Below are positions 4,490 to 48,001 of a stretch of 49,787 bases of DNA, one piece after another. Numbering within the stretch: position 1 is the first letter of the stretch; the number at the start of each line of letters is the position of its first letter. The notes below the pieces were generated by a model. The model made no database searches, was not told the origin of the DNA, and saw only the letters and a list, made by a program, of their open reading frames with translations. The stretch is from an uncultured Caryophanales bacterium (GTDB lineage Bacteria > Bacillota_I > Bacilli_A > RF39 > UBA660). Made by a program: the position numbers and the translations under genes. Where the stretch lies: NCBI GenBank assembly GCA_947564265.1, contig CANOBK010000011.1, forward strand, positions 1 to 49,787. Direction: 5' to 3'.

Positions 4490-4702
4490 ATGAATTTAGA
4501 TATCAGAAGTCATATTATTAATAATTTTAAAGGAGATACCAAAGAAACACTAAAAAGTGCGATTGAAGAAAGTATTCAGAACAATGATGAAATTACCTTA
4601 CCAGGAATGGGAGTATTCTTTGAACTAGTTTGGAAAAAATCATCCAATGAAATGAAAGAACAAATACTTTCTGACTTAGAAGAAGCAGTGAATGTAAAAT
4701 AA
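4490..4702 (+). CDS. sspI: small acid-soluble spore protein SspI
   Basis: Small 70-residue protein with the SspI layout: an N-terminal LDIRSHIINNFKGDTKETLK (family pattern LNLRHAVIANVTGN...), then the hallmark LPGMGVFFELVWKKSS near residues 37-52, and a short acidic helical tail. From memory of the B. subtilis protein the match covers the whole length. SspI is a minor SASP made in the forespore and packed into the spore core. The AAAGGA ribosome site lies ten bases before the ATG. The gene is monocistronic, flanked by a sigma-G-like promoter and a hairpin terminator, as expected for ssp genes. It is strong evidence that the organism makes endospores. Confidence 0.92.
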   Translation: MNLDIRSHIINNFKGDTKETLKSAIEESIQNNDEITLPGMGVFFELVWKKSSNEMKEQILSDLEEAVNVK

Positions 4703-4705
4703 AAG

Positions 4706-4731
4706 CGCTACCTTTGGTAGCGTTTTCCTTT
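4706..4731. terminator. Terminator after sspI, possibly bidirectional
   Basis: The hairpin CGCTACC-TTT-GGTAGCG follows the sspI stop and is followed by TTTTCCTTTT. The convergent wall-hydrolase gene ends at 4731, so the stem may serve both strands, although its T tract is on the plus side. Confidence 0.75.
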
Positions 4732-6014
4732 TAACGATAATGGTTTCCATTTTTTGTATATTGAACTCCTTTAGCACTCTCTCCAGAAGCAAATCTTTCA
4801 AAGTCATGCATTGGTTCCAATTGCCCCGTTAACATAGCATCAACGATTTGACTCGTAACTTCTGAATAGCCACCATTCAAATATTTTTGATAATGACCTT
4901 CATAGTATGATTGAAATTGACCAGATCCTGTAATAATTCCGTATGGATTCTTTCCTCCAGGCCAACCTCCAGATTCACTTCGATTAATCACAGTAGACAT
5001 TGCTGCATACACTTCTACTTCATCAAATCCTGCTTCGTGTTGAATGGTTGCTTTGATGGTATCTATTTGTGTTGGTGTTAGATTATATGCCGTAATATAA
5101 TTGATTCCTGTACTACTTGTATTCATTACCAAATTAATATTTTCTGCTGTTTCTTCAGAGATTGCTTGTCCATCTGATAAAGCCATTTCTGCCACTGTTC
5201 TAATTTCTTCTTCTGTTGCATTTTGACTACTTAATTGTTGTGCCATAGCCTCAATTTCTGCTTCTATTTCTTCCTCATTTGATGCATCAGTACTACGAGA
5301 TTCTGCGGTTGCTTCTTTGTTTTCTGTATCACTTGTTTTCTGTTTCTCATTTTCTACAGAAGGTTCGTCTTCATTTTGTTCAACTTCTTCCTCTTCTAAT
5401 TCTTCTTCCATTACCTGAGGAGTTTTTTCATCCTTATCCGATAAATCTAATTCGAAATCAAGGGAAAGTTCAGTACCACTAGCTACTAATTCTAAAAAAC
5501 CAGTATCAAATTCACCATTCTCATCTTTCTCAAAACTTTGTTCATAATCGTCCTCTAATTGTGATTTGACGGAAAAAAAGCCTGCTATGAGAACTGTTCC
5601 TGCTGCAAGGAAAAGTCCAATTTTCTTTCTTATTTTAGTGGAAATTTTTTTATCGTCTTTCCTAATTCCTTTTCTTAGAGTCTTCTCTTCTAAACGGTCT
5701 AATTTTCTCTCTATCTTCTTAAAAAGTCTTCTTAGTTCTGGATGTCTTTTTAATTGATTATAACCTTGAATGACAAAAGTATCGTTTTTACGATAATTCA
5801 TATGTAAGTCGCGACCTTCAATGGAAATAGTTTTAACCGTATCTACCAAGGTATTTAAAATTCGTTCTATATTTTGAGGTTCGCTTGCTACATAATATTC
5901 AAGGACATCCTGCTCGTTAGATTCTTCTTTTTCACCAATTTCTCTTTGAATTGAAATCTTAATCGAATTATTTTCCTCAAAAAGTTTAAATTTTACTGCA
6001 TGATTACTAGCCAT
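4731..6014 (-). CDS. membrane-anchored SleB-like cell wall hydrolase
   Basis: A 427-residue protein in three parts. Residues 1-130 are a soluble, presumably cytoplasmic domain with a basic end (RRLFKKIERKLDRLEEKTLR). A single membrane segment follows near 131-150 (IGLFLAAGTVLIAGFFSV). Outside lies a long acidic Glu-rich linker (about 180-280) and a C-terminal Hydrolase_2/SleB domain from about 305. The catalytic Glu is expected in IQHEAGFDEVEVYAAMSTVINR, with NPYGIITGSGQFQSY further on. SleB-type enzymes are lytic transglycosylases acting on spore cortex or vegetative peptidoglycan. Germination SleB has a signal peptide and PG-binding domain instead, so this anchored form is distinct. The N-terminal part resembles that of the transglycosylase at 26203-27351. 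The start has an AGGAAG site. Confidence 0.85.
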   Translation of the reverse strand: MASNHAVKFKLFEENNSIKISIQREIGEKEESNEQDVLEYYVASEPQNIERILNTLVDTVKTISIEGRDLHMNYRKNDTFVIQGYNQLKRHPELRRLFKKIERKLDRLEEKTLRKGIRKDDKKISTKIRKKIGLFLAAGTVLIAGFFSVKSQLEDDYEQSFEKDENGEFDTGFLELVASGTELSLDFELDLSDKDEKTPQVMEEELEEEEVEQNEDEPSVENEKQKTSDTENKEATAESRSTDASNEEEIEAEIEAMAQQLSSQNATEEEIRTVAEMALSDGQAISEETAENINLVMNTSSTGINYITAYNLTPTQIDTIKATIQHEAGFDEVEVYAAMSTVINRSESGGWPGGKNPYGIITGSGQFQSYYEGHYQKYLNGGYSEVTSQIVDAMLTGQLEPMHDFERFASGESAKGVQYTKNGNHYR

Positions 6015-6327: not shown

Positions 6328-7260
6328 TTATCGCTCAATTCTTGCTAATTCTTGCCCATCCACTTCGAATAACACCACTTGTACATTATAGGTATCAAAG
6401 ATGGAATATGCTACTTGATAAGTTACTTCTTCTAATATCTTTTCATTATCAAATAAGCTATGGTTAAAATTTAATAGCATCAATTCATCTTCTACTTGAT
6501 AATTCATAAGTTCAACATCTGTCTGTAATAAAGAAATGAGACTACTTTCATAAAGAAAGTTACTTGATAGATTTTCTACAATAATATCAATTTTTTCACG
6601 AGAATCGTTCACGTATTTCGTAACTGGGACATAATAGTTTTGTTGATTAATTTCATTCAGATAATAGGTAGTTACCTTTTGAATTCCAGAAGAATAGTCT
6701 AAATCATATACTTTATTAATTCCATAATCTTTCGTTAAAATCTCTGGAACTGGTTTCTTGGATGACGGAAGTTCAGTAACAGGAATTCCCTCTACTTGAA
6801 GTTTTAGTCCACTCACTCCATCTAAAGAGGTAATACTATAAGTTAGTCCCTCTATTAGTCTCTCCTGTAACTCCTGATTCCCACTCCATATTTCTTTAGA
6901 TAAATTCAACGTCACCGTTTCATTTTCTACCGTAATTCCGAGCACTTTCGTACCAGTTGGCAGAATTCCTGATAATCCTACTGGCAACTTCGTATTTTTA
7001 TCAATGGTTAAATAATTGATAAGAATATCAATTTTCCCTTCGATATTTCCTGCATCTAATAGTGTATTTGTTTTTACTAAATAATGATTACTTCCTAAAA
7101 GGTAAACATCATCCATTCCTAAAGATGCCACATATTCTACTTCTGGCGAGACTTCAAGTTCTTGAATTAAGTCCGTTCCCGAAATAAAATAAACGACAAA
7201 CAGTGTAAAAATCGCAAATGTCGTAATTAACATTTTTCTTAAAGCTTTTCTTCTTAGCAT
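6328..7260 (-). CDS. gerM: GerM-like sporulation lipoprotein-type protein with two GerMN domains
   Basis: Protein of 310 residues with an N-terminal membrane segment (LITTFAIFTLFVVYFISG near 11-28) and two copies of the GerMN fold, about residues 65-160 (INYLTIDKNTKLPVGLSGIL, VTLNLSKEIW) and 190-305 (VTTYYLNEINQQNYYVPVTK, LMLLNFNHSLF). GerM in B. subtilis is a mother-cell protein needed for engulfment and germination; it stabilises the SpoIIIAG-SpoIIQ channel. There is no lipobox Cys, so this version is membrane-anchored rather than a lipoprotein. I chose the ATG at 7260 over the GTG at 7269, because AGGTGAAGGG precedes it. It sits beside gerE and spoIIIAH, which supports the call. Confidence 0.85.
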   Translation of the reverse strand: MLRRKALRKMLITTFAIFTLFVVYFISGTDLIQELEVSPEVEYVASLGMDDVYLLGSNHYLVKTNTLLDAGNIEGKIDILINYLTIDKNTKLPVGLSGILPTGTKVLGITVENETVTLNLSKEIWSGNQELQERLIEGLTYSITSLDGVSGLKLQVEGIPVTELPSSKKPVPEILTKDYGINKVYDLDYSSGIQKVTTYYLNEINQQNYYVPVTKYVNDSREKIDIIVENLSSNFLYESSLISLLQTDVELMNYQVEDELMLLNFNHSLFDNEKILEEVTYQVAYSIFDTYNVQVVLFEVDGQELARIER

Positions 7261-7290
7261 ACCCTTCACCTAATCTATTTTATGAAATTA

Positions 7291-8225: not shown

Positions 8226-8825
8226 TTATTTCTTATACTCCAGTAATACTTTTAATTTTTCTTTACCCTTTTCAAAATCTAGCCAAGAAGGATTTAGTCC
8301 CGCCATTCCTTGAAAGACTTGTAAAAGTTCTAAATAGATATCAGGAGGAATCGTAAAACAGGCCTTTGTTAAAACTTCTGGATCTATTTTTCCATCCATC
8401 ATTGCCTGATAAGCTTCTATCAAGGGATAATACATTTCATTTTTGACAATATCATACTCTGATAGTCTAGTTAGGTGATATCGATAATAATTTTGAAAGG
8501 CTCTAAGAATTTTTTCATCGCAGAAGCTCCCTTTCTTTACGACTAAATGATTCTCTCCTACAATAATAATTTCTCTTGTATCATTCGATTTTTCATAAAT
8601 ACTTCTTTCTATATGAAATGGTTGATCCCTAAATACCTGCCGTAAACGATATCCAATATCTTTTTTCATTGATCTTAGTAAGGGACCCTCAATATTTTCT
8701 GCACTATATTGAATATTACTAACTGATTGAATTTCTATATCTTTATAAAATTCTTCATAAACAATTCTTTTTTCATGATATTTAAGTCCGTCCAGATAAA
8801 TAAAACTTGCTTCTTTCCAAAACAT
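8226..8825 (-). CDS. hypothetical protein, paralogue of the next gene
   Basis: An unrecognised 199-residue protein. It starts with ASFIYLDGLKYHEKRIVYEE, which aligns with ASFIYMNGLNYTKRIITYQD of the adjacent upstream gene. The two also share SNIQYSAEN / TSFHFDGTN, the block LIEAYQAMMDGKIDPEVL / LIELYQSLMCDEIDDSIV, and LELLQVFQGMAGL / LNILSILKGMAGV. They are therefore a diverged tandem duplication. Both are soluble and mixed alpha/beta, with no signal or membrane segment. The ribosome site is AGGAGAAA. The pair is co-directional with spoIIIAH, with nine bases between the two paralogues. No function can be assigned. Confidence 0.7.
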   Translation of the reverse strand: MFWKEASFIYLDGLKYHEKRIVYEEFYKDIEIQSVSNIQYSAENIEGPLLRSMKKDIGYRLRQVFRDQPFHIERSIYEKSNDTREIIIVGENHLVVKKGSFCDEKILRAFQNYYRYHLTRLSEYDIVKNEMYYPLIEAYQAMMDGKIDPEVLTKACFTIPPDIYLELLQVFQGMAGLNPSWLDFEKGKEKLKVLLEYKK

Positions 8826-8834
8826 CTTTTTCTC

Positions 8835-9476
8835 CTATCTATATAATCGTTGGAATCTATGTGACCAATATGGCTGATGATTGATTCCCTCTAACAAAGA
8901 TTTTACTTTTTTCTTAGAAGATTCTTGTAATATTTGGTTTTCTTCAACCCCTGCCATTCCTTTCAAAATAGAAAGGATATTTAAGTAAAATTCTTCTGGT
9001 TGTGAATCACAAAACAAACTGACGATTGAATCATCAATCTCATCACACATTAGACTTTGATAAAGTTCTATTAACGAATCATATTCATCTCTAGAAATTT
9101 CTTTCTTTAAAGAGAGAGATTGTTTATGCCATTTTTCATATTGATTGTAAACTTCCAAAATGGAAGAATCTACTGTCTTTTCACGATCTAAAACTAATCC
9201 TTGATTTGCAATTATCATAGTCTCTAATTCTTCCGATGGAAGCGTTGTTCTTTCCCACAAAATTGGTTGATTGTATTTTGTAAGAGTTTCTTTCATTCCC
9301 TTTCTTGCTTCTTCTATCATTGCATTCTGTAACTTAGTACTAACATTTGTACCATCAAAGTGAAAACTCGTTACATCTTGAATTCTAAAATCGCTTGTAT
9401 AATCTTGATATGTAATGATCCTTTTTGTATAATTTAGACCATTCATGTAAATAAAACTTGCTTTCTTTGTTTCCAT
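8835..9476 (-). CDS. hypothetical protein, tandem paralogue
   Basis: An unrecognised 213-residue protein and first gene of the tandem pair. Residues 1-60 form a likely beta-rich unit (ASFIYMNGLNYTKRIITYQD, SFHFDGTNVSTKLQNAM). The middle contains LPSEELETMIIANQGLVLDR, and the last third is helical (SLKKEISRDEYDSLIELYQS, FYLNILSILKGMAGV). Relative to its paralogue it has a 15-residue basic and aromatic tail (HQPYWSHRFQRLYR). The ribosome site ACAGGAGAA is clear. It is divergent from the gene at 9644, so the 167-base gap between them carries two promoters. Association with sporulation is suggested only by its neighbour spoIIIAH. Confidence 0.7.
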   Translation of the reverse strand: METKKASFIYMNGLNYTKRIITYQDYTSDFRIQDVTSFHFDGTNVSTKLQNAMIEEARKGMKETLTKYNQPILWERTTLPSEELETMIIANQGLVLDREKTVDSSILEVYNQYEKWHKQSLSLKKEISRDEYDSLIELYQSLMCDEIDDSIVSLFCDSQPEEFYLNILSILKGMAGVEENQILQESSKKKVKSLLEGINHQPYWSHRFQRLYR

Positions 9477-15709: not shown

Positions 15710-16315
15710 TTAACTCACTCTCCCACACTGATTACTACTATAGATAGTGGTATTCCAATTTTCTAAGTACCCGTTTTCATTTTTTTTCTGTACTTCTTCT
15801 AAACCTTTAATAGTATAAAGAGAACGCACAACTCCCTCTTCTGTTCCACAAAACGATTGAATCGTAAGTTCCATTCTATTTTTTGCATTCTTTAGGAAAG
15901 CCTCTTCCATAATCTCATCCACTCTTGTAAGTGGTAAGGCATTTTTTCCAAGATCTTGTAAGGCCACATAATATTCATATTTTGGGTCATCTGGTGTTCC
16001 TTGATTAATAATGGCAATATAACTTTTATTTTCTGCATAATCAAAACCAAAGGAAGAACGAAAAGAATCCTTTTCTTTATCAAGCAAACTTGTAGAAATA
16101 ATTGTTACATCGTTCTCTGTTACTGGTAAATCGAATTTTTCTAAAATCGTATCTTGACTAACGATTCTTTGATCATTAATGGCATCATCAATAAACAATC
16201 TTTTTTTCGAAGTTCCTAAATACCCAGTTACTGCTGGTATTGCAAGGCTAAGCAAAATACCAACGATTACTAAAGTAGCCAGTAATTCTATTAATGTAAA
16301 ACCTCTATGATTCAT
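15710..16315 (-). CDS. type IV pilin-like protein
   Basis: A 201-residue protein with a class III prepilin signal: MNHRG, then FTLIELLATLVIVGILLSLA, with cleavage expected between Gly5 and Phe6 and Glu at mature position 5. The globular part is unusual for ComGC/GspG. It contains DDAINDQRIVSQDTILEKFD, a YYVALQDLGKNALP strand segment, and a C-terminal pair of Cys (QSFCGTEEG and SNQCGRVS) that may form a disulfide. The ATG at 16315 is preferred because AGGTGA lies six bases before it. No assembly ATPase or prepilin peptidase lies in this window, so the machinery must be elsewhere. Confidence 0.85.
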   Translation of the reverse strand: MNHRGFTLIELLATLVIVGILLSLAIPAVTGYLGTSKKRLFIDDAINDQRIVSQDTILEKFDLPVTENDVTIISTSLLDKEKDSFRSSFGFDYAENKSYIAIINQGTPDDPKYEYYVALQDLGKNALPLTRVDEIMEEAFLKNAKNRMELTIQSFCGTEEGVVRSLYTIKGLEEVQKKNENGYLENWNTTIYSSNQCGRVS

Positions 16316-16351
16316 AAGCATCACCTAGTATCAATATACCATAAATCCTAA

Positions 16352-16401: not shown

Positions 16402-17070
16402 TTATTCGGCAATATTACGAACGGTGATGTTTCCAGTTCCACTGATGGAAAGATTTTGTGGTACATAATTCTTCTCAGAAGAAGAGCCAGAAGCAGTATT
16501 TAGTATCAATCTTGTAGTATTTACTTGCATGCTTGTTAAACTGACATTACCTGCCGTTGCATTCCCTGTATATCTTGTTACATAATCAGATTTAGAAGTC
16601 AACTCCTCTTCAGAAATAATCATCTGTTGAGAATTTTTACCAATTACATACTGTCCATCATCAGCAGTTGCATAATATTTATATTCAGGTCTATCACTGT
16701 TGCTACCCATTTGAACAATTACAACATAAGAACTTACGACCGTTCTACTATTGTTTTTTCCCGTAATTCCTTCTAAGAAGGATCCTCCATAGGGACTCTT
16801 TTTTCCACTCTTGTCTAATTTATCTACTAACAAATCAAATGGAATAATAGTAGCATCATATTGATCTGCTGGCAATTCAAATTCTCCTGAAATAGCTGCA
16901 TATCTGGCAGCGCTTATGTATTGAAGAATATTATCTGTATAACCACTCTTCTTTGAAGAATTGATATATCCAGTAACAGCTGGAATCGCTACCGCTAAAA
17001 GTATAGATAATATTACAATTACAGCTAGCAACTCAATTAAAGTAAAACCTTTTTTATTATGCAATTTCAT
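16402..17070 (-). CDS. type IV pilin-like protein
   Basis: A protein of 222 residues starting MKLHNKKG, then FTLIELLAVIVILSILLAVA, a textbook prepilin N-terminus with cleavage after Gly8. IPAVTGYINSSKKSGYTDNI continues the N-terminal helix; the same IPAVTGY segment is found in the pilin-like protein at 15710. The C-terminal half is rich in Ser, Thr and Asn (NTASGSSSEKNYVPQNLSIS) and looks like a beta-rich surface domain. There are no cysteines. The ATG at 17070 has AAGGGA upstream; the frame is open to 17139 but that region holds the promoter. It has its own terminator, so it is monocistronic. Confidence 0.87.
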   Translation of the reverse strand: MKLHNKKGFTLIELLAVIVILSILLAVAIPAVTGYINSSKKSGYTDNILQYISAARYAAISGEFELPADQYDATIIPFDLLVDKLDKSGKKSPYGGSFLEGITGKNNSRTVVSSYVVIVQMGSNSDRPEYKYYATADDGQYVIGKNSQQMIISEEELTSKSDYVTRYTGNATAGNVSLTSMQVNTTRLILNTASGSSSEKNYVPQNLSISGTGNITVRNIAE

Positions 17071-17101
17071 TTTATAATCCCTTCTCTCTATCATTATTTT
17101 T

Positions 17102-17130
17102 ATTATACAATATCGAAAATCGGCGGTCAA
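17102..17130 (-). promoter_or_regulatory. promoter of the 16402-17070 pilin-like gene
   Basis: On the minus strand TTGACC (17125-17130), 17 bases and TATAAT (17102-17107) lie about 31 bases before the start. A 19-base palindrome lies just upstream. Confidence 0.68.
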
Positions 17131-17144
17131 CAATTCCAAAACTT

Positions 17145-18871: not shown

Positions 18872-19393
18872 CTAATTCACACAAGTTCGAATCGTACCAG
18901 AAACTCCTGTAACATTTCGGATTTCTTCATCCGTTGGTGCAGCAATACCCTTTCTTACTAATGTCATTCTATTATCTTTTTCTAAATTACTACGATCAGT
19001 TAAGTATATTCCTCTTGTATTCCCATTACTACTTTTCCCCATCATATTTACATAATACACCAATTCTTCGTTTTTACGAACAACAACTACAAATGTTTCA
19101 TTTTCATCATAAGGATTACCTTCTGGATCAGAAGGAAGGTCTTGATTATCTAAACAAGATAAGTTAACTCGTACAATTTCTCCATATCCAGGTTTATTGA
19201 TTCTATTTCCCATTTGACTTCTAACTAGAGAAATCATTTTTTTAGCATCACCAATATAAGTTTCTTTTTTATTACGATCGAGAGTTGAAATAATATTTGG
19301 TACCGCAATTGCCATCAAAATCGACAAAATAACAACTACAGATAGAAGTTCTACTAATGTAAATCCTTGATTATTCAATCTTCTTTTTCCCAT
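18872..19393 (-). CDS. type IV pilin-like protein (ComGC/GspG-like)
   Basis: A 173-residue protein starting MGKRRLNNQG, then FTLVELLSVVVILSILMAIA, with prepilin cleavage after Gly10 and Glu5 of the mature form. VPNIISTLDRNKKETYIGDA continues the helix, as in major pseudopilins. One Cys pair is possible (NLSCLDNQD and the terminal RTCVN). It is immediately followed by the membrane MurF-like gene, so both are transcribed together from a good promoter upstream. The ribosome site is GAGGAGG. It is the smallest of the three pilin-like proteins here. Confidence 0.86.
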   Translation of the reverse strand: MGKRRLNNQGFTLVELLSVVVILSILMAIAVPNIISTLDRNKKETYIGDAKKMISLVRSQMGNRINKPGYGEIVRVNLSCLDNQDLPSDPEGNPYDENETFVVVVRKNEELVYYVNMMGKSSNGNTRGIYLTDRSNLEKDNRMTLVRKGIAAPTDEEIRNVTGVSGTIRTCVN

Positions 19394-25564: not shown

Positions 25565-26206
25565 TTATCTTTCACTATAAACAACTTCTTTTTCTAGAAT
25601 TAAGGAAACCGGTTTAAAAGTTTTTCGATATCCTTCGATTAAACCATATTTCTGAATTGCTTCCACATGTTTTTTTGTGGGATATCCTTTATGACTTTTG
25701 AATCCATACATTGGATACTGCTTATCTAGTTCAATCATCATTCTGTCCCTTGTCACTTTGGCAATGACAGAAGCTGCAGCAATTGAAATACTTTTTGCGT
25801 CTCCCTTAATAATGGAAGTACTTGGCATTTTAAGTTTCTCTAATTTCATTGCATCAATTAATACATGTTCTGGTTGAATCGACGATTTTTCAATTGCTTC
25901 ATACATGGCAAGCTTGGTAGCCTCATAGATATTTACTTCATCGATTATCTCAGCACTCTTCATTCCAATGGAAACACTTAAGGCATGATCCATAATATAT
26001 TGATAAAATTGTTCCCGTTTTTTTTCTGTCAGCTTTTTTGAATCAGTGAGTCCTTCTAAAATAAAGCTCTTTGGTAAAATCACGCATGCTGTGACGACTG
26101 GACCAATTAAAGGGCCTCTCCCTACTTCGTCAACTCCTGCTACATATTGAATTCCATTATTCCACAATTCACGTTCAAATTGATAAAGATCTACAGTTTC
26201 TTTCAT
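25565..26206 (-). CDS. rnhB: ribonuclease HII
   Basis: RNase HII nicks 5' of ribonucleotides embedded in DNA and removes RNA:DNA hybrids. The 213-residue protein has the first active-site acids in YVAGVDEVGRGPLIGPVVTA (residues 20-39), the third in VLIDAMKLEK near 115 and the fourth in IAKVTRDRMMIELD near 148-161. The C-terminal GYPTKKHVEAIQKYGLIEGY block is typical. It overlaps the transglycosylase gene upstream by four bases, so the two are coupled. Confidence 0.96.
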   Translation of the reverse strand: MKETVDLYQFERELWNNGIQYVAGVDEVGRGPLIGPVVTACVILPKSFILEGLTDSKKLTEKKREQFYQYIMDHALSVSIGMKSAEIIDEVNIYEATKLAMYEAIEKSSIQPEHVLIDAMKLEKLKMPSTSIIKGDAKSISIAAASVIAKVTRDRMMIELDKQYPMYGFKSHKGYPTKKHVEAIQKYGLIEGYRKTFKPVSLILEKEVVYSER

Positions 26207-27351
26207 TTCCTAGCTCCTAAACTTGGCACTTCAACATCTATCAAATGATTTGCATTATAACACTGTTCAATCGATAAATTAATTTTTGATAAGTAATCTA
26301 AAGTAGCAGGAATTTGTTTAAAGTTACCACCACCATTATATTCTCGATACATTTCATCCATATTTAAGGTTCCATTTCTTCTAACATTTCTCTCACAAAT
26401 ATCCTGTATAAGGTAGGCAGCACATTCAATATTTACTTTATCATCATTTTTAATTTGATCTGGAGTAAAACCTAGTTCTTCAAATAGTACTTGGTAGTTT
26501 GCTGGATTAATTTGCATAAATCCCTCATCTCCACTACATCCAACTTTTGCATGATTATCAAATTTACCATCAGATTCTACATGGGCAATCGTCATCAAAG
26601 AAAGATAGGGAATTTCATATTTTTCAGACATCTCATACATATGGATATTTAAATCCATCGGTAAAAGAGGCTGATCATATAATTGAATGGTATCCGCTTC
26701 CATTGTTTGTGATATTGTGTTTTCTACTTCTAATTGATTATAGGTTTCTGATACTTTATCCAAAGCGATTTGACTCAATTCATTGATTGGTTGTACCTCA
26801 TGTTCTATTTCTACCTGATAAGTTGGAACTTCCTCTATCTCCGTTTTTCCTGCATCAAGACCAAACACGTATAACACACAACCTACACCTAAGGCAGTCG
26901 CAGTTCCTAAAATTGTATTTCTCACCTTTTTTAATAATTTGTCTGAGGCAGGTTTTTGACTTATTACCTTAGTTCGTTTCGTTTCTTTTTGTCTAATCCT
27001 TTCAATGATAGTACGAAAGATTATATCTTTTGGATATTTCTCATAATTTACTAATTGAATAATTTCAGTTTGGTTTTCTTTTGTATTTAAACGAATATTC
27101 ATATTACCGTTTTTATCCTGCCAGTATAGGTTCATTTCATTTTCGATTCCTTCTAATTTTTGTTTAATAAAATCTGTATCTTTTGTTGTTTTTTTTTGAA
27201 CGCTTTTCCCATCTTGGATAATTTCTAAGGTATAATTCAGTTCGCCTCTCGTTACTTTCAAGATTCTTTCTTTTACAAAGTGGTCCACTTCTTCTAGGTC
27301 TAAAAAAGCGAAATCATCTTCTAAATCGAAATTTAATGCATTTTGACTCAT
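26203..27351 (-). CDS. membrane-anchored lytic transglycosylase (SLT-like)
   Basis: A 382-residue protein. Residues 1-145 form a soluble, presumably cytoplasmic domain (FDLEDDFAFLDLEEVDHFVK near the start, IIQLVNYEKYPKDIIFRTII near 112). A single membrane segment (AATALGVGCVLYVFGL-like, near 152-170) leads to an outside linker and a C-terminal lysozyme-like domain from about 240: IPYLSLMTIAHVESDGKFDN with the catalytic Glu, GDEGFMQINPANY and REYNGGGNF, all SLT hallmarks. It cleaves peptidoglycan glycan strands. The N-terminal domain resembles that of the SleB-like protein at 4731-6014. I chose the ATG at 27351, with GTAGGTG upstream. Its 3' end overlaps rnhB. Confidence 0.87.
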   Translation of the reverse strand: MSQNALNFDLEDDFAFLDLEEVDHFVKERILKVTRGELNYTLEIIQDGKSVQKKTTKDTDFIKQKLEGIENEMNLYWQDKNGNMNIRLNTKENQTEIIQLVNYEKYPKDIIFRTIIERIRQKETKRTKVISQKPASDKLLKKVRNTILGTATALGVGCVLYVFGLDAGKTEIEEVPTYQVEIEHEVQPINELSQIALDKVSETYNQLEVENTISQTMEADTIQLYDQPLLPMDLNIHMYEMSEKYEIPYLSLMTIAHVESDGKFDNHAKVGCSGDEGFMQINPANYQVLFEELGFTPDQIKNDDKVNIECAAYLIQDICERNVRRNGTLNMDEMYREYNGGGNFKQIPATLDYLSKINLSIEQCYNANHLIDVEVPSLGARK

Positions 27352-27444: not shown

Positions 27445-28332
27445 CTATTGTCCTATGTCTTCTAATCGATCTAGGGTAATCGGTCCAAAGAGCCCTTCTT
27501 TAAAATCTCTTACAATTAGATGATAAACTTTTTCATAGTCAAATGTTCCCCCTTTTCCGAGTGCTCCTCTTTTTTGAGCAATTTTAGATAGGGTATCCTC
27601 TAAATCGGAAAAATCGATTGTCTCTAAATCATAACGTTTTAGTAATTGTTCTGGATAGTATTTCATCATAATTTTTAAGATAAAAGTTGCAATTTCTCTT
27701 ACATCTAAGATTTCCTCACGAATTGCAGAAAAGCAAGCTAGAATTGTTGCCTGATTTTGATTTTCCAATTTTGGCCACAAAATTCCTGGGGAATCTAACA
27801 GTTCAATATCTTTATGAATGCGAATCCATCCTAAGTTTTTAGTAACTCCTGGTCGATTTCCAATCGCGGTTGCTTTTTTCCCAACCAAACGATTAATTAA
27901 AGTACTTTTTCCCACATTCGGACTTCCTACAATTAATGCTCGAATCGAACGTGGTTTCATCCCCTTTGCCTTCCTTTTTTCGTTCATCTCCTGCATACAT
28001 TCCTTTGTTAAAGAAACAATAGTATTAACATTCTTTCCTGTTAATAGATCCACAGGGACTACATAATATCCTTGCTCTTTATAATGCTCTAAGATACGGT
28101 CTGTTTCTTTCCTATCACACAGATCATATTTTGTAGCAATTAAAATTCTTGGTTTTCCCTTAACTAAAGTATCAATATCTATGATTTTAGAGCTAAGAGG
28201 CATCCTCGCATCAATCACCTCATACACAATATCAATAAGAGCGATTTTTTCTGCGATTTCCCTCCTAGTTTTTGCCATATGTCCTGGATACCAGTTTATA
28301 TTTATCTGATTTTGTCGATTTTCATTATTCAT
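27445..28332 (-). CDS. rbgA: ribosome biogenesis GTPase RbgA (YlqF)
   Basis: RbgA is a circularly permuted GTPase needed for late 50S assembly. The motif order is G4 TKYDLCD near 78, G5-like, then G1 GSPNVGKSTLINRLVG near 129-144, G2 GVTKNLGW and G3 LLDSPGILWPK near 168-180, which proves the permutation. The N-terminal INWYPGHMAKTRREI and DARMPLSS are YlqF signatures, and the C-terminal ANTAR-like helical domain follows. The ATG at 28332 has GGAAGTGA. In B. subtilis ylqF lies next to rnhB, and that link is kept here with one gene between. Its start overlaps the MBL-fold gene by eight bases. Confidence 0.95.
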   Translation of the reverse strand: MNNENRQNQININWYPGHMAKTRREIAEKIALIDIVYEVIDARMPLSSKIIDIDTLVKGKPRILIATKYDLCDRKETDRILEHYKEQGYYVVPVDLLTGKNVNTIVSLTKECMQEMNEKRKAKGMKPRSIRALIVGSPNVGKSTLINRLVGKKATAIGNRPGVTKNLGWIRIHKDIELLDSPGILWPKLENQNQATILACFSAIREEILDVREIATFILKIMMKYYPEQLLKRYDLETIDFSDLEDTLSKIAQKRGALGKGGTFDYEKVYHLIVRDFKEGLFGPITLDRLEDIGQ

Positions 28333-29026
28333 TTGCTTCACTTCCTTCAATGCGAGCTACTTTAAAACCATCCCTAATTGCTTTTTTATATAGTTCTACA
28401 GTATCAAAATGCATTAATATTAATTTTTCCTTTTCTAAATTGATAATATCATCATATTTTATATGAGCGTTATATGTTTCTGTTGCAATTTCTGTATATA
28501 TTGTTTTTATATTTTTATCTTCACACAATTCCTTTATATAATTAATATCATTTGTATCACCTGTATAATAATATTTTCCCAACTTATCTTGAAACATTAT
28601 ACCAAAACATTGTAATTTTGGCGTGTGAGTAGTTCTTTGCATATTAAGTTTTAAATCATTGATTTTAAAAGATGATTCCCTAACAAATTTAACAAGTTTT
28701 TTATCTACTCCAGTTAGTTTTAGTAATTTTTTTAAAGTATGGACATATTTAAAATCGCTATAAATTATTTTAGGACTTATATTTAAATTAAAATTACAAT
28801 ACCAAATAAAAACTCCTAATCCAGCCACATGATCAAAGTGAGTATGTGTAATTGCAACATAAATATTCTTTATATCTTTAAATGCACTTGCCTTTTCTAA
28901 TTTCTCAGTCGCTCCCTCACACATATCTATAACTAAAAGATTATCTTCCTCTTTTAAATAACAACAATTTCCACCTAACTCAATATTGGTAGATCCACCT
29001 ATACCAATAAAACTTAGTTTTTTCAT
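28325..29026 (-). CDS. metallo-beta-lactamase-fold hydrolase (RNase Z-like)
   Basis: A 233-residue MBL-fold protein. Metal-site motifs are THTHFDHVAG near 60-69, a His in TTHTPKLQ near 133, YTGDTND near 155 and the final His in LILMHFD near 204. The arrangement is closer to the RNase Z/ElaC side than to beta-lactamases, but there is no exosite arm, so tRNA 3' processing is doubtful. Composition is notably more AT-rich and Asn/Lys/Ile rich than rbgA, which it overlaps by eight bases. Together with the two genes upstream it looks like acquired DNA. The ribosome site GGAGG precedes the ATG. Confidence 0.82.
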   Translation of the reverse strand: MKKLSFIGIGGSTNIELGGNCCYLKEEDNLLVIDMCEGATEKLEKASAFKDIKNIYVAITHTHFDHVAGLGVFIWYCNFNLNISPKIIYSDFKYVHTLKKLLKLTGVDKKLVKFVRESSFKINDLKLNMQRTTHTPKLQCFGIMFQDKLGKYYYTGDTNDINYIKELCEDKNIKTIYTEIATETYNAHIKYDDIINLEKEKLILMHFDTVELYKKAIRDGFKVARIEGSEANE

Positions 29027-46705: not shown

Positions 46706-46739
46706 CAAAAAGAAAACAATTTTTAATTAAACTGTTTTC
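46706..46739 (-). terminator. Terminator overlapping the end of the 46727 gene
   Basis: The minus-strand stem GAAAACAGTTT / AAATTGTTTTC at 46712-46739 is followed by TTTTTG. Part of it is inside the last codons of the gene. Confidence 0.75.
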
Positions 46740-48001
46740 TCTGTTAACTCTTGTTCTAAATTAGCAGATAGTCTTTCAACAATTGTTCCTCCATTTAAAT
46801 AACCACATGTTTTACTACCACCAGCTTTGTCACTTCTAATTAATGGAAATGCCAGATTTTCTACTTGTAACCTTGCTAATTCCTCTACATTTTCAATTTT
46901 TGCAGAAACGCCATTAATCAGTACAAAAGGAACTCCAACTTTACTACCAATTAAACTTTCATAATATTCTGAATTTGGAATTGGGGAATGCTTTTCAATC
47001 GCATCTTGAGCAGTTGCATAAACTGGAACCAAGTCAAACGGTTGTTTTGATGCTTCAATCATTTCCTCATAAGGAACCTGTCCAATTACTTTTGAAAAAT
47101 CGAAGGATACCTGTTGCCAAATTGGATCTGATTTTAAAGCATCTTCTCCCACTTGATAGTAGGCTGTTTGTTCACCTGTTGGAACCCATACATTGGTAGA
47201 AGTATCTAACGGTGGATTAATACCATGATATCCATTTCCTGTCAACGTCCAATATTCTCGATCTCTATCAGAGATGGCTACTTCTATATGGTTTTCTTCC
47301 TGCATCTTTGAATTTTCCTCTCTTTTGGTCTTGCTTACAATTTGTTCTAGTTCATCCGTAGAAAGGCCATTCTTTCCGATAATTTCATTAATGCGTAGTG
47401 CATCATTAATTGCCTTTTTCACTCCTGTTCCAAAAACTTGGGTCAAAGTTAAATCTTCTTCTTTTTGCTTCATTAAATCTTGATGAAGTTTTTCTGGGGC
47501 TCCACTTTTTATCTTATTTTCAGCTTTAACCAACATTTGTTCTGCCTGCTCAGGATCAATCCCACGATGAATCAATTCATTCTTCGCATTTTCTCTATCT
47601 TTTTTAGAATCACCAGAATCAAATGTAACAGAGTTATATCTCTTATCATTCTTAGAATCTAAATCCTGATCTTTTTCTTCTACTTGGATAGGATTATTGG
47701 AAAATGCCTCAGGATGTAATATTTCTACATTACCTTGTAACTGTCTAATTCTTTCTTCATCAAAAGGAATCCCACGCTTTTCTTCTGGAATCTCGGATTC
47801 CATCCGTACGTTTTCTTCATGTTTTTCGGCAACTTCTTTTACAATCAATGCGCTAGCCGCTACAAGACCTGCAAAAAATATCCCTATTTCTGCTCTCTTT
47901 AGGACTCTTTGTCTTCTTAGTTTCGCATTTGCCATCTTTTCAGAAACAACTTTCTGACGGTATTCTTCAAAGTGATATTGATTATCCTCTTCCCTTTTCA
48001 T
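46727..48001 (-). CDS. unknown single-pass membrane protein
   Basis: A 424-residue protein I do not recognise. A basic cytoplasmic N-terminus of about 37 residues (EKMANAKLRRQRVLKRAEI) leads to one membrane segment (IGIFFAGLVAASALIV, 38-54). A long charged extracytoplasmic part follows, with acidic linkers and helices (EEERIRQLQGNVEIL-like, QMLVKAENKIKSGAPEKLHQ). From about residue 240 a folded-looking domain begins: DREYWTLTGNGYHGINPPLD, TGEQTAYYQVGEDALKSDPI and SKVGVPFVLINGVSAKIENV. One Cys (SKTCGYLNGG) is present. It lies between frr and the pheST T-box with AGAGGAAAG as its site. It may be involved in the cell surface, but nothing confirms this. Confidence 0.65.
   Translation of the reverse strand: MKREEDNQYHFEEYRQKVVSEKMANAKLRRQRVLKRAEIGIFFAGLVAASALIVKEVAEKHEENVRMESEIPEEKRGIPFDEERIRQLQGNVEILHPEAFSNNPIQVEEKDQDLDSKNDKRYNSVTFDSGDSKKDRENAKNELIHRGIDPEQAEQMLVKAENKIKSGAPEKLHQDLMKQKEEDLTLTQVFGTGVKKAINDALRINEIIGKNGLSTDELEQIVSKTKREENSKMQEENHIEVAISDRDREYWTLTGNGYHGINPPLDTSTNVWVPTGEQTAYYQVGEDALKSDPIWQQVSFDFSKVIGQVPYEEMIEASKQPFDLVPVYATAQDAIEKHSPIPNSEYYESLIGSKVGVPFVLINGVSAKIENVEELARLQVENLAFPLIRSDKAGGSKTCGYLNGGTIVERLSANLEQELTEKTV

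Follow-up and report, generated by a model that had tools for sequence, protein, structure and literature searches.

How bacteria control from the inside the enzymes that cut their wall on the outside is an old question. One known way is inside control through separate transmembrane complexes, for example FtsEX. The locus studied here raises the question whether an intracellular part of the hydrolases themselves could provide such a control point. The window, i.e. the whole analysed stretch of 49,787 nucleotides, lies in contig C11 of a 1.68 Mb, 90% complete genome of an uncultured Caryophanales bacterium, and an earlier note had proposed that two of its anchored wall hydrolases share a cytoplasmic N-terminal domain (in the following the N-domain). 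The family of the host probably belongs to one of the orders RF39, RFN20 and ML615J-28. A study of these orders of the Bacilli predicts that they combine species that form spores, species with a thin wall and species without a wall (PMC10868615).

Both open reading frames were confirmed, and both lie with all of their features on the minus strand. The SleB-like protein (427 aa, 4731..6014) starts with the N-domain (residues 1-105, 5700..6014, delimited by profile and genome searches), followed by a membrane helix (residues 131-149, 5568..5624) and a match to the Pfam family PF07486 Hydrolase_2 (residues 337-413, 4776..5006). This match, with 20.1 bits and an E value of 0.001, stays below the curated cut-off of 27 bits, such that we label the protein Hydrolase_2-like only. 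SleB of Bacillus has a separate N-terminal peptidoglycan-binding domain; this domain was absent from the SleB-like protein among the Pfam matches listed (E up to 10). The SLT lytic transglycosylase (382 aa, 26203..27351) carries the N-domain at residues 28-128 (26968..27270, delimited by profiles and an AlphaFold model), a membrane helix at residues 147-165 (26857..26913) and the SLT catalytic domain at residues 241-344 (26320..26631, from Pfam and genome searches), which matches PF01464 with 29.2 bits, above the curated cut-off of 21.3 bits. Pfam yielded no YceG match in either protein and no match for the N-domain of the SLT protein, which is not contained in the PF01464 family model. The common plan that had been proposed for the two proteins, a soluble N-domain, one helix with the N-terminus inside, a linker and a hydrolase, was borne out.

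The N-domain had furthermore been placed inside the cell, just ahead of a basic stretch and the helix, and the charge pattern predicts the same. The 20 residues before the helix carry a net charge of +8 in the SleB-like and of +5 in the SLT protein, and the 20 residues after it a net charge of -6 in both. The same asymmetry was found in 30 of 31 chosen proteins, where the 20 residues before the helix were more positive than the 20 residues after it. Together with the established positive-inside rule, this pattern indicates an N-domain inside the cell.

To compare the N-domains with each other we used direct alignment as well as profiles. The two segments at the N-domain ends, from which the proposed similarity had started, align in register, with Y85 and I101 of the SleB-like protein corresponding to Y103 and I119 of the SLT protein. 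Direct BLASTP comparison of the two proteins provided 21.6 bits (E 0.04 for a single comparison), the best alignment running from the N-domain end through the helix with a shift of a few residues. Within the genus the SleB N-domain and the SLT N-domain are each present in 8 of 18 genomes. A profile comparison of 8 SleB with 8 SLT N-domains gave a match probability of 76.5% (P 2.2e-5, 72 columns) at an identity of about 13%, and the claimed similarity withstood this test. None of 200 column shuffles provided an equally good match, the shuffle maximum being 3.2%. With a smaller set of 5 SleB versus 8 SLT N-domains the match was 45%, i.e. the signal rose when relatives were added. A differently constructed pair of 8 versus 8 profiles gave 71.9%, and a shorter-trimmed set of 6 SleB versus 5 SLT N-domains gave 86.0%. 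When N-domains retrieved by the SleB profile alone were included, the match was 95-97% for these against SleB and 86-89% for the SLT N-domains of the genus against SleB and the retrieved N-domains combined; the genus SLT N-domains against four copies retrieved by the SleB profile alone gave 18%. Across three sets of profile comparisons no shuffle reached the real value. As a further control, ten profiles of unrelated window proteins were compared with three N-domain profiles; in these 30 comparisons, in which five of the ten control profiles were single-sequence and hence weaker controls, the maximum was 8.4%, over 17 columns. Small sub-profiles linked SleB and SLT at 0.3-5%, and two SLT subgroups of the genus linked with each other at 19% and 0.9%. 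Such a faint link within one genus indicates that N-domain copies diverge fast. In a sequence-to-profile search with a profile of SleB and other N-domains the SLT protein of the window ranked fourth among 143 window ORFs at an E value of 0.17, such that no cross-detection was obtained.

A blind test was carried out by searching the profile of the SleB N-domains alone over 243 genomes of the host's family. The 30 resulting rows comprised 2 SleB proteins, 8 anchored hydrolases of other types (from 6 genomes), 17 unrelated ORFs and 3 rows that were not examined. The four best non-SleB rows had E values of 6.5e-5, 1.5e-4, 0.0026 and 0.0037, and the first unrelated row followed at 0.0075. These four proteins, which belong to four other genera, consist of an N-terminal region, a hydrophobic stretch and then an SLT or a glucosaminidase-like domain.

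Structure prediction was carried out for both N-domains. The AlphaFold model of the SLT N-domain is a confident b-b-b-a-b-b-b-a arrangement with pLDDT values of 83-94 per ten-residue block over residues 31-120, for which no significant structural match was found in the PDB or among viral structures. For the SleB N-domain a single-sequence model of low confidence (pLDDT 60) was obtained, in which two strands are not resolved and the remaining elements follow the order of the SLT model.

Judged by these sequence comparisons, the two N-domains are very probably distant homologues. Both display what we propose as the marks of an N-domain family, namely a profile similarity above the shuffled and the real controls, an orientation with the N-terminus inside the cell and a position ahead of a helix that is followed by a wall hydrolase. 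That small alpha/beta domains without common descent had merely converged, with no domain being shared, would suit the identity of about 13%, the BLASTP value, the SLT protein missed by the sequence-to-profile search and the 18% match of the genus SLT set with the four SleB-retrieved copies, but it is highly improbable, as no shuffle out of 200 and no real-profile comparison out of 30 came close, as the SleB-only profile retrieved other anchored hydrolases blind, and as both domains occupy an equal position ahead of the same kind of helix with a compatible order of elements in their models.

Domain libraries and literature were searched for the N-domain as well. Scans of the window proteins provided no N-domain family in Pfam or NCBIfam, and in a Pfam scan of 29 N-domain copies at a threshold of E 1 no family recurred in a second copy. 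The family YabP (PF07873) appeared in 1 of the 29 copies, where 24 residues scored 13.2 and 15.6 bits, below its cut-off of 27 bits. Among the literature matches listed, whose titles and abstract starts were available, no description of the shared N-domain was found.

How widely the domain is distributed was analysed by searching 386 genomes with a profile built from 21 copies. This search added 10 proteins of the same plan, with a Pfam-supported hydrolase in 9 of them; the tenth (L096), which carries three N-domain copies, has an outer part without Pfam match that is glucosaminidase-like by eye only. The new rows below E 0.001 comprised 8 of these 10 proteins and 3 unrelated ORFs, while 18 weaker stretches were all unrelated by eye. 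The suggestion that one domain occurs on different catalytic types thus held and could be extended to three types, SLT, glucosaminidase-like and Hydrolase_2-like, and to other genera. The SLT enzymes with N-domain scored above the Pfam cut-off in those scanned; the glucosaminidase-like enzymes were mostly under the cut-off of 30.2 bits (14.7-29.4 bits), with some above. A profile match together with Pfam support was obtained in nine genera (g1, g4, g15, g27, g79, g93, g133, g152 and g174), and the genus g137 has triple-copy proteins without Pfam match in the outer part. A set of 33 proteins contained Hydrolase_2 copies from outside the genus (L293, profile E 7e-7, and L294, 0.01) as well as a further glucosaminidase-like copy (L272), with an E value of 6.6e-7, yet 0.11 with the iterated profile. 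Tandem N-domains were seen as two copies in G116 and three in G160, and by eye as three in G277.

For the SLT type we determined how many enzymes of the family carry an N-terminal region of sufficient length. SLT proteins over threshold were present in 34 of 145 family genomes, one per genome. At least 60 residues precede the first hydrophobic stretch in 26 of the 34; the other 8 have fewer than 60, one of them (G142) being probably a misread strand. An iterative profile included 17 of the 26 proteins with long N-terminus, above 520 shuffled decoys. Five of these belonged to the start set or were closely related to it; the remaining 12 likely carry the N-domain as well. In three genomes of the same genus (G004, G008 and G015) the SLT protein is short and has no N-domain. 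No true copies from outside the host's family were found among the rows examined in searches of the class and the phylum (395 and 295 genomes).

Several other proteins turned up in these searches. In an SLT protein of G028:C106 (L022/L192) the region N-terminal to the hydrophobic stretch is longer and of a different kind. Two related non-hydrolases, YunB-like by eye (L095 of G125 and L305 of G112), gave weak profile matches (E 2.1e-4 and 9.8e-4) that fall after the first hydrophobic stretch and that we regard as chance. A weak match (E 0.0019) was also seen for a protein from another family of the class (L308 of G077), in its N-terminal part before the helix; by eye it is YqfD-like.

We then compared the gene neighbourhoods. 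The SleB-like gene follows the genes of spoIIIAH, a GerE-type regulator and a GerM-like (Germane domain) protein (6328..7269, minus strand), and it adjoins sspI, which encodes a small acid-soluble spore protein (4490..4702, plus strand). From these neighbours it is probably a sporulation gene. Of the 8 loci of the genus that were examined, counting the window, 6 have a GerM gene adjoining the SleB gene with N-domain. The SLT gene is flanked by the RNase HII gene rnhB (25565..26206, minus strand) and by the GTPase gene ylqF (27445..28350, minus strand), and this arrangement, with one of the two genes on each side, is found in all 8 genus loci that have an N-domain SLT gene (window included). 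Beside the short SLT genes of G004, G008 and G015 neither ylqF nor rnhB was found, where two of the three loci lie at a contig end and have little flanking sequence. A methyltransferase gene and the gene for YceG (mltG) precede the N-domain SLT gene in six genomes, which come from two other genera; the two YceG neighbours scanned matched Pfam at 1.4e-72 and 1.4e-65. This setting hints at a role of the N-domain SLT protein in wall growth in these two genera. No partner gene was conserved in general over 34 neighbourhoods and the window. Five clusters of non-hydrolase genes occurred in at least four of these neighbourhoods, each in 4-7 loci, and were by eye of genome-common kinds. Adjoining the SLT gene in three genera we also observed one family of 80-90 aa proteins (L194, L204 and L205 in G099, G193 and G038), for which the two scanned members had no Pfam match. 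In the window, tandem ORFs with similar starts lie upstream of spoIIIAH (8226-8825 and 8835-9476) and have no Pfam or NCBIfam match.

What could such a domain do? On balance we favour that the N-domain, an unnamed module of about 90-105 residues just under the membrane, binds one or several proteins in order to place, hold or release the hydrolase. Its partners would be located in the cytoplasm or at the membrane surface, and binding to them would concentrate, hold back or release the outward-facing hydrolase at a given place, possibly the growth or division site or the forespore membrane. A binding tether is favoured by two properties of the copies. Over the 29 aligned copies the conserved columns are hydrophobic, complemented by a tyrosine that is present in 21 rows and a glycine present in 14, with no sign of an enzyme-like or a fixed polar ligand site. 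Outside the membrane, a long linker of 65-287 residues (median 97, 24 proteins) precedes the hydrolase; being flexible, it argues against signalling by rigid coupling. The tandem copies, in turn, argue for binding.

The same conservation would also suit a plain structural element. The N-domain could be a passive, membrane-proximal plug that folds before export, fixes the topology with the N-terminus inside and retains the enzyme, with neither partner nor signal. Conserved positions that mainly form a hydrophobic core, the basic stretch ahead of the helix in 30 of 31 proteins and the lack of a generally conserved neighbour gene are in agreement with such a plug. However, a simple helix would anchor the enzyme equally well, as in the 8 of 34 family SLT proteins with a short N-terminus (the probably misread G142 among them), and tandem copies are hard to account for, such that we consider a passive role unlikely.

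Less probable still is a signalling role, in which the N-domain would respond to a small molecule or to phosphorylation and pass a change of conformation along the helix to the hydrolase. A precedent is MltG of E. faecalis, where, according to the excerpt of the source, IreK phosphorylates the cytoplasmic segment and substitutions in this segment change the ceftriaxone resistance (PMC12369325). MltG/YceG of E. faecalis and S. pneumoniae resembles the window proteins in having the N-terminus inside, one helix, an outer wall-cleaving domain and a cytoplasmic part as possible control point. It differs in belonging to another catalytic family, and its segment in E. faecalis is described in that excerpt as predicted disordered, whereas the N-domain is a predicted folded domain common to several catalytic families. 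Moreover, apart from the tyrosine no polar or phosphorylatable position is conserved in the 29 copies, and the long outer linkers make a rigid transmission unlikely.

Returning to the N-domain as a binding tether, the window proteins can be set beside known systems. The catalytic domain of the 4731-6014 protein is of the SleB/CwlJ type (PF07486) and its gene lies beside sporulation genes, but it scores below the cut-off and carries a cytoplasmic domain and a helix in addition. Likewise, the 26203-27351 protein has the catalytic domain of SLT enzymes (PF01464) and differs from them by its extra N-domain. MapZ of S. pneumoniae is not known to be a hydrolase. It is similar in that a single helix joins a cytoplasmic and an outer part, where the cytoplasmic part binds FtsZ and the membrane (PMC7055233). 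This part is largely disordered, which is different from the predicted folded N-domain.

A putative common regulator acting on both hydrolases through the N-domain, as had been suggested, is plausible. With SleB among sporulation genes and SLT between ylqF and rnhB, the two enzymes may work at different times. A common regulator would then need to act in both settings, or the N-domain would bind something that is always present. A broader version, in which one cytoplasmic factor recognises the N-domain on all hydrolase classes that bear it in the family, such that growth and spore wall cutting share an intracellular cue and the domain has been shuffled as a control tag, we regard as tentative and rather doubtful. 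A folded cytoplasmic domain on three unrelated hydrolase classes would offer a handle: finding its binder would give the control factor. Such a domain would also be an example of an uncultured lineage with a solution of its own, overlooked by domain libraries owing to the low sequence similarity among the copies.

Further Hydrolase_2 proteins were observed in the family. The host genome encodes a short 141-aa, CwlJ-like Hydrolase_2 protein without N-domain (L300, G000:C19:11546-11869), and short Hydrolase_2 ORFs resembling it occur in many family genomes. Two proteins of 329 and 354 aa (L005 of G007:C16 and L006 of G017:C45) combine Hydrolase_2 (Pfam 9.9e-7 for L005) with an N-terminal region that by eye is WXG100-like and helical, and they have no evident membrane helix; they may be type VII-secreted SleB-like hydrolases. 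Two more proteins with Hydrolase_2, L290 of the host genome (402 aa, G000:C8:33362-33625) and L292 of G112:C7 (345 aa), have long helical N-termini, LXG/WXG-like by eye, and are possibly type VII-secreted too. Elsewhere in the window, a 424-aa protein (46727-48001) has a basic N-terminus, a hydrophobic stretch at about residues 35-60 and no Pfam match, and three ORFs (15710-16324, 16402-17139 and 18872-19393) have prepilin-type GFTLIELL/GFTLVELL starts.
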